40,545 nt of DNA from assembly GCA_024239035.1 (NCBI GenBank), contig JANBVK010000002.1, forward strand, positions 29,191-69,735, written 5' to 3'. Below are positions 6,999 through 19,287 of the stretch, in pieces (positions within the stretch are counted from its first letter, which is position 1; every line of letters begins with the position of its first letter). The notes beneath the pieces are model-generated. The model made no database searches and had not been told where the DNA came from. It saw only the letters and a program-made list of their open reading frames with translations. The position numbers were made by a program, and so were the translations under genes. The DNA is from Patescibacteria group bacterium (GTDB lineage: Bacteria; Patescibacteriota; Minisyncoccia; UBA6257; GWB1-50-10).

Positions 6999-8177
6999 AT
7001 GTCAAGAAACAGTAATAAAAAAGTTTGCCCTGAGCGGGGTCGAAGAGTATTCGTTGCTATGTCCGGGGGAGTTGATTCGTCTGTAGCTGCGTTGCTCTTG
7101 AAGAACGCGGGTTATAACGTTACCGGCGTATTTATGCGTTGCGTTAGTGGTGAGCTTAGTCGAACCATTAATAGCCCTTCGACTGCGCTCAGGGCGGATT
7201 GCACCGCTGAAGCGGATGCAACCGATGCGCGTCGGGTAGCTGCTCATTTGGATATTCCTTTTTACGTTTTTGATTTTGAAGAAGAATATAAGCGTACGGT
7301 GGTGGAGTATATGGTTGACGGTTACCGGCAGGGAATAACTCCAAACCCGGATGTAATGTGCAACAAGGAAATTAAATTTGGATTGTTTTTGAAAAAAGCA
7401 TTGTCGCTTGGGGCTGATTTTATTGCGACTGGGCACTACGTTAGGCTTAGCTGCTCGCTTTTTACGGCTCGTGATACCAACAAAGACCAAAGCTATTTTC
7501 TCTGGACTTTGACCCAAAAACAATTAAAGCATTGCCTTTTTCCGATAGGTGATTATCTAAAATCAGAAGTGAGAGAGATAGCGCGAAGAGCGGGACTCCC
7601 GACTGCAGAGAAGAAGGATTCGCAGGGAATTTGTTTTTTAGGGAAGGTGACACTTGCAGATTTTCTTAAAAACTATATTCCCGAAGAAAAAGGGTTTGTA
7701 TTTACAACTGCTGGTGAGAAACTAGGTGAGCATAACGGTGCTTGGTTTTACACTATTGGTCAGAGGCGTATCGGCATTGCTTCAGGGGAACCTGTTTACG
7801 TGGCGGATAAAGACGTCAAAACAAATACTATTGTTGTAGCCGAAGACAGCAACAACCCCGCGCTTTACAGAAACGAAATTAATTTAGATGAAGTAAATTT
7901 CATAAAACCCCACCCGGTTGGAACAATTCGTCCTTCGACATCGCTCGGGATAAACGCGAATTGGCGAATGGAGATTTTAGCGCGGGTGAGATATAGGCAG
8001 CCGCTCACAAAAGCAATTCTCTATAACCTAACGCCTACAACCTATAACCTAAAATTTGACCAGCCGCAAAAATTTATCGCCCCGGGTCAGTCGGCAGTTT
8101 TTTACTTGCCCGCCGTAGCCTCGGCGAAGGAGGGTATGAACGAACACGAGATGTTGGGCGGAGGGGTTATCATTTAG
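6999..8177 (+). CDS. mnmA: tRNA-specific 2-thiouridylase MnmA, with several in-frame repeat insertions
   Basis: VFVAMSGGVDSSVAALLLKNAGYNVTGVFM, TPNPDVMCNKEIKFG, GHYVRL, KDQSYFLWTL, KKDSQGICFLGKV, YTIGQRRIGI. Confidence 0.95.
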   Translation: MSRNSNKKVCPERGRRVFVAMSGGVDSSVAALLLKNAGYNVTGVFMRCVSGELSRTINSPSTALRADCTAEADATDARRVAAHLDIPFYVFDFEEEYKRTVVEYMVDGYRQGITPNPDVMCNKEIKFGLFLKKALSLGADFIATGHYVRLSCSLFTARDTNKDQSYFLWTLTQKQLKHCLFPIGDYLKSEVREIARRAGLPTAEKKDSQGICFLGKVTLADFLKNYIPEEKGFVFTTAGEKLGEHNGAWFYTIGQRRIGIASGEPVYVADKDVKTNTIVVAEDSNNPALYRNEINLDEVNFIKPHPVGTIRPSTSLGINANWRMEILARVRYRQPLTKAILYNLTPTTYNLKFDQPQKFIAPGQSAVFYLPAVASAKEGMNEHEMLGGGVII

Positions 8178-8223
8178 AAGCCCACCTAAGGACGGGCAGG
8201 TTAGTAATTAGGAATTCTCACTT

Positions 8224-18731: not shown

Positions 18732-18807
18732 GTTACATGGTGATGTAACCCTTCGATAAAACTCAGGGTGCTCAAATTTGTAACTTCGCTACGCTCAGAC
18801 AAATTTG
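18732..18807 (+). promoter_or_regulatory. Multi-hairpin leader of rpsL
   Basis: GTTACAT-ggtg-ATGTAAC; CCCTTCGATAAAACTCAGGG-TGCT; CAAATTTG (18773-18780)/CAAATTTG (18800-18807) 2 nt before the ATG, loop TAACTTCGCTACGCTCAGA. Confidence 0.65.
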
Positions 18808-19220: not shown

Positions 19221-19287
19221 TGTAACCCTTCGACAGGCTCAGGGTGCTGAATTTTTCAGCTACTCGCTTTGCTCATAGGAAAAATTC
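19221..19287 (+). promoter_or_regulatory. Composite hairpin leader of rpsG
   Basis: TGTAACCCTTCGACAGGCTCAGGGTGCTGA then GAATTTTTC (19249-19257)/GAAAAATTC (19279-19287), loop AGCTACTCGCTTTGCTCATAG; ATG at 19290. Confidence 0.65.

Follow-up and report, generated by a model that had tools for sequence, protein, structure and literature searches.

The window, i.e. the whole stretch of DNA that was analysed (40.5 kb; contig C2, 29191-69735), belongs to the genome of a Parcubacteria-like member of the Patescibacteria (CPR), here G000, which comprises 794,594 bp (0.79 Mb) in 12 contigs and is 99.7% complete. On the forward strand it carries a gene of tRNA 2-thiouridine(34) synthase (mnmA, 6999..8177, 392 aa), which adjoins a divergent efp-like gene. 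The assignment is based on profile, invariant-column, copy-number and model evidence. MnmA scored 399.7 bits with the NCBIfam profile NF001138 (cut-off 284) and contains the Pfam domains PF03054, PF20259 and PF20258, with the domain set of the MnmA family (HUP/PP-loop, central and C-terminal barrel domains). In an alignment of 60 sequences it keeps all the invariant positions (SGGVDS of the PP-loop at 22-27, Cys121 and Cys212), and the two cysteines presumably have the catalytic role that they have in E. coli MnmA. The predicted model has a pLDDT of 89, and its top structure matches are MnmA structures (2hma, 2det, 2deu and 2der). A genome-wide search matched one locus and found no second mnmA in this genome, so a pseudogene with a second mnmA elsewhere was rejected. 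Judged by its profile match, its catalytic residues and the fold predicted for it, the MnmA of G000 is intact and functional-looking. Immediately 3' of the mnmA stop codon there is a GCCCACCTAAGGACGGGC-like inverted repeat (8181-8200), possibly a terminator or a member of another repeat family.

Inserts in mnmA

A preliminary description of this DNA proposed at least four in-frame repeat insertions from two families in mnmA. All of them are present, and the alignment with related MnmAs displays them as extra residues at four sites, numbered here 1, 2, 3 and 5. Site 1 is an 18-nt family-1 repeat on the minus strand (7028..7045), which encodes PERGRR just before the protein strand VFVAM and adds about 8 aa in comparison with the G001 homologue; the repeat coordinates proposed earlier were essentially right, except that this one had been extended to 7046. 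After 6999 the next start codon is the ATG within the first strand, and translation should therefore include the N-terminal insert. Site 2 is an inverted family-1 dimer, consisting of a degenerate inverted unit (TGAGCttaGTCGAA, 7151..7164, minus strand) and a perfect unit (CCCTTCGACtgcGCTCAGGG, 7175..7194, plus strand) that encodes PSTALRA. The net gain is 15 aa (45 nt) after GVFMRC, where homologues continue from FMRC with YNLDGC and the G000 protein has the 15 extra residues with the two inverted copies.

The insert at site 3 (7931..7954, plus strand) is 24 nt long (TCCTTCGACATCGCTCGGGATAAA), contains a family-1 core at 7932-7950 encoding PSTSLG and adds 8 aa. It had been placed before the C-terminal barrel, but it actually lies in a loop inside the C-terminal domain, with strands 290-301 and 323-329 on either side. 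The insert splits an older palindrome (ATTCG^CGCGAAT, encoding IRAN; 7926..7961, plus strand) that is uninterrupted in relatives. When the 24 nt at 7931-7954 are taken out, the sequence ATTCGCGCGAATTGGCGAATG (IRANWRM) results, which is an exact empty site with the arrangement of the relatives. ATT CGC GCG AAT is uninterrupted at these codons in six genomes of different genera (G024, G021, G022, G006, G058 and G038), and in G024 the region is a perfect 30-bp palindrome (CATTCTACGATTCGCGCGAATCGTAGAATG). The site-3 repeat is therefore the younger one and is nested in the older palindrome, since the relatives carry the latter uninterrupted and the removal of 24 nt restores it.

Site 5 is a family-2 repeat (CCCGCCGTAGCCTCGGCGAAGGAGGG, 8109..8134, plus strand) near the terminal GGGVI, which encodes PAVASAKEG, gives a net gain of 10 aa and is flanked by the last two strands. 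Together, the four sites add about 41 residues, or 10% of the protein. A tandem stretch of the CTATAACCTA type (LYNLTPTTYNLK, 8018..8056, plus strand), designated site 4 and missing from the preliminary description, was considered as a fifth insert and rejected: the DNA is repeat-like, but relatives have the same length here (that of the G013 homologue is equal) and there is no net gain. The region of site 4 is an insert hotspot in other relatives.

In the predicted model, the inserts correspond to low-pLDDT stretches (1-14, 51-70, 302-322 and 370-383), mostly between predicted strands and helices, so that according to the model all four sit in loops. Residues 51-57, within the low-confidence stretch of site 2, are predicted to form a short helix.

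Repeat families in the genome

Family 1 has the form CCCTTCGAC-N2-4-GCTCAGGG. The sequence CCTTCGACnnnGCTCAGG, with up to three mismatches, is matched six times in the 40.5-kb window versus 0.5 expected, and the matches with at most one mismatch include three in mnmA. Exact copies of TTCGACnnnGCTCAG number 15 genome-wide, versus 0 for the reversed control. At up to two mismatches, a sample of 434 kb (about half of the genome, genes being called as simple ORFs) contains 34 copies of family 1, versus 0, 1, 1, 3 and 4 in resampled controls. Twenty-two of these copies lie inside ORFs and are read in several frames (e.g. PSTALR, LRQGSA, FDIAQG, PERSRR), and the other 12 are intergenic, an enrichment given that non-genic DNA makes up about 11% of the sequence. 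Family 2 (CCCGCCGnAGCnnnGGCGnAGGnGGG) has five copies genome-wide (at most two mismatches), four of them in ORFs. In the window, the family-2 core has one match versus 0 expected. The genome-wide count of a relaxed family-2 core equals that of the reversed control, but all five copies run on into CCC...GGG flanks, which are absent from the search pattern. Four more ORFs contain a third palindrome (CCTGCCTGCCGGCAGGCAGG), which is read there as peptides of the LPAGRQ type.

The preliminary description called the repeats palindromic and the pair at 7151-7194 a hairpin. Folding energies were compared with those of shuffled sequences. Single family-1 units are weak (z about -0.7) and, being no better than shuffles, are not claimed here to be palindromic; the inverted dimer at 7151-7194 (z -1.4) and family 2 (z -1.9) fold better, although not strikingly.

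Several other occurrences of family 1 were noted. An inverted pair similar to that within mnmA is located in the intergenic region C1:508298-508353 of G000 (L009, L010), and two copies in the window (18750-18767 and 19227-19243) occupy the intergenic spaces on either side of rpsL. Three tandem units (L131:1244-1315; C1 of G000, approximately 171,245-171,313) encode the N-terminal LRQGSASST repeats of an ORF that is at least 445 aa long. A PSTGSG insert is found near the C-termini of three ORFs that look like paralogues, each about 600 aa long (L131:6808, 13626 and 17049), and since all three have it in common, the insertion probably preceded the duplications. An ORF of 962 aa (SDTFLDSAWYYLRY), similar to aminoacyl-tRNA synthetases, contains a family-1-like stretch encoding PSTRSA (L140:6191-6207).

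Among the 430 ORFs sampled, mnmA ranks first in repeats of the library, with three of family 1, one of family 2 and what is left of the IRAN palindrome; the pattern for the latter (F4b) was derived from mnmA itself, and the gene is still first without it. Three family-1 matches in a gene of this size have a Poisson P of about 5e-5, or about 0.02 when corrected for all sampled genes.

MnmA inserts in related genomes

The insert residues of G000 are mostly missing from the MnmAs of relatives (55 genomes), as had been supposed, and homologues encoding the same residues by non-repeat DNA were not encountered among them. The relatives have inserts of their own, and the same loops are struck repeatedly by differing sequences from unrelated repeat families: after TGHYVR in 18 genomes, after RQPL in 17, and before GGGVI at two neighbouring positions, with 5 entries at one and 11 at the other. 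Other recurrent locations are the site-3 loop, the FMRC loop and the position after LLLK, where TPNNFEKLFGRPTP occurs in three genera. Family-2-like inserts at site 5 are found in G000, G012, G022 and G024, and palindromes at site 3 in about a dozen genomes. G013, G014 and G007 lack inserts at the majority of these sites. The inserts turn over within genera: repeats at sites 1 and 5 are present in G024 and not in G001 of the same genus, a TPNNF...RPTP insert is present in G028 and not in G014, again of one genus, and G010 and G026, also congeneric, differ in their inserts as well.

An inverted-repeat score of at least 8 was obtained for 22 of 84 inserts versus 40 of the 840 segments used as controls (P=1e-4 in a rank test), while many MnmA inserts of the relatives, e.g. 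at query residue 150, are no clear palindromes. A MnmA of Yanofskybacteria (L070:1486-2640) carries two almost identical copies of a palindrome of about 40 nt (CCTGTGGATAAACGACTTCGCAAGTCGTTTATCCACAGG), one at site 2 and one at site 3, and the mnmA of G004 (L230) has three tandem SIHSGSKSSDFG-like units before the terminal GGGII, i.e. at site 5. The insert HSNILKNVGM of several MnmAs is a 30-bp palindrome that is dispersed in 19 of 59 genomes, versus 0 for the reversed control. In its two-mismatch copies the changes fall at mirror positions in 36 of 39 cases among the matches listed, where about one is expected, and in 16 of 19 distinct sequences. Such changes preserve the pairing of the arms and thus suggest that a DNA or RNA hairpin is involved when copies of this palindrome spread or are repaired.

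The insert load was compared with that of AspS, TopA and DprA, counting inserts of at least 5 residues between core columns; the control set is limited to these three proteins, the TopA and DprA loci being the best-scoring 30 each, and MetG was left out with only 8 full-length orthologues. Over the 20 genomes that the four proteins have in common, the inserted residues per 100 core residues amount to 7.28 for MnmA, versus 0.58 for AspS, 0.88 for TopA and 0.53 for DprA; with all available sequences the values are 5.18, 0.34, 1.42 and 0.35, respectively. Thus, in the same genomes the insert load of MnmA exceeds that of the three controls 8- to 14-fold. Together with the first rank of the gene within its genome, this bears out the unusual density remarked upon earlier: MnmA is a hotspot for in-frame repeat insertion in G000 and its relatives. 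No such inserts were found in non-CPR MnmAs, in a sample that was mostly Bacilli and hence of closely related sequences.

Origin and spread of the repeats

Coding palindromic insertions have previously been known mainly as Rickettsia palindromic elements (RPE; Ogata 2000, 2002; Claverie and Ogata 2003, as cited in PMC6649704 and PMC10969869) and as occasional intragenic REPs. The G000 repeats resemble RPEs in being dispersed, in occurring in coding and non-coding DNA, in being inserted in frame into conserved genes with empty sites in homologues, and in forming several families per genome that would be tolerated in functional proteins, here a functional-looking one. They differ in size, as the units are 18-30 bp or inverted pairs and the RPE size given in PMC10969869 is about 150 bp, in the host, which belongs to the Patescibacteria, and in that one gene is struck repeatedly across genera. 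The likeness to Rickettsia pointed out earlier is apt as an analogy, with this difference in element size.

Intragenic REPs of the GTAG and CGTC superfamilies consist of 20-40 bp units, often inverted dimers encoding 20-30 aa, which occasionally occur at least twice per gene (uvrA, uvrB) and often in nucleic-acid enzymes; RPE-4 and RPE-6 correspond to short CGTC REPs (PMC3733652). The repeats described here are similar in their short units, in being paired in inverted orientation at some loci, in the occurrence of several per gene and in the nucleic-acid enzyme affected, but families 1 and 2, judged by eye, have no evident GTAG or CGTC end tag, and the family-1 core strings TTCGAC and GCTCAGG are absent from the text of PMC3733652. 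Unlike the REPs mobilised by RAYT, they are found in a genome in which a profile search detected no Y1 transposase (Y1_Tnp, PF01797), control genomes being positive. This transposase is present in 25 of the 59 genomes of the set and is missing in six of the 11 relatives with at least five family-1 copies. A RAYT-type transposase was accordingly rejected as the mover, with none in the own genome and no clear link in the relatives. Coding palindromes of Nematomorpha mitochondria are likewise inverted repeats kept within functional coding sequence; they differ in encoding conserved residues and involve no insertion of dispersed elements (PMC6649704). By analogy, the repeats of G000 may work like RPEs and intragenic REPs, while membership in either is not claimed because the unit size differs from that reported for RPEs and no RAYT was found. 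No report of such inserts in Patescibacteria was found in the literature searched, which covered few subscription journals, and a search by repeat sequence gave no relevant paper among the matches listed.

It is quite probable that dispersed repeats spread in the genome and that their insertions are kept only in frame and in tolerant loops. Several short families (18-30 bp, mostly hairpin-forming, some as inverted pairs) would multiply in Patescibacteria genomes, their copies entering both genes and intergenic DNA, and genic copies would survive only when in frame, stop-free and in exposed loops. The repeats might be moved in trans as selfish DNA or through hairpin-templated copying. MnmA may tolerate a partial loss of enzyme while offering many loops; with at least seven tolerant ones, it would for this reason have accumulated many inserts. 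The insert residues are probably translated and the enzyme active, as far as the sequence indicates, and tolerance, not targeting, probably explains the insert load.

The 8-14-fold excess over AspS, TopA and DprA is the strongest argument for a different, rather unlikely explanation, in which MnmA is a preferred target or keeper and recurrence is selected because the hairpins or added loops are functional, for instance in mRNA-level autoregulation or in contact with the modified tRNA. MnmA would then be a selected landing site that captures unrelated hairpin repeats to tune expression or activity, a domesticated control of tRNA modification and not tolerated junk, which we likewise regard as doubtful. 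The same loops are indeed struck in many genera, at times by the same family (sites 5 and 3), and intragenic REPs occur in many proteins acting on DNA or RNA, including tRNA pseudouridine synthases (PMC3733652). The strongest argument against is that the sequence, length, family and presence of the inserts vary even within a genus; G013, G014 and G007 do without inserts at most sites, and the low confidence of the loops in the model suggests that they have no fixed structure.

An origin of the inserts in place, by replication slippage or templated hairpin copying and with no dispersal of mobile units, seems improbable. The coevolving arms of the 30-bp palindrome are what hairpin-templated repair would give, and tandem copies occur at site 5 of G004 and in L131, but the same families recur at many unrelated loci in many genera, so that local origin cannot explain the sequence identity. 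It is very improbable that the elements are translationally bypassed or spliced, leaving a protein without them, as with the bypassing elements of yeast mitochondria: several per gene, at loops and with some forming hairpins, they do recall the bypassed palindromic elements mentioned for Magnusiomyces mitochondria in PMC6649704, but every copy keeps the frame and lacks stops within an open ORF, which bypassing would not need. Decay of mnmA into a pseudogene, or an error of assembly, is scarcely credible despite its foreign residues and the MAG origin of the sequence: the ORF is open and lacks none of the invariant residues, the scores greatly exceed the curated cut-offs, a nearly complete genome has a single copy, and the same phenomenon is seen in dozens of independent genomes.

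Coding palindromic insertion extends to the small genomes of Patescibacteria, where several families are involved and tens of genera have one enzyme struck in the same loops. In effect, nature has run a replicated experiment here, from which one may learn which loops of a protein put up with random peptides, how new protein segments originate, and by what means short palindromes travel in genomes where no transposase is obvious. A further lesson is that DNA repeats, and not a conserved motif, can lie behind stretches such as PSTxxG, PERSRR and LPAGRQ in proteins of Patescibacteria. AspS is seldom struck, yet family-1-like peptides (PERSRG, PELVEG) are found there too.
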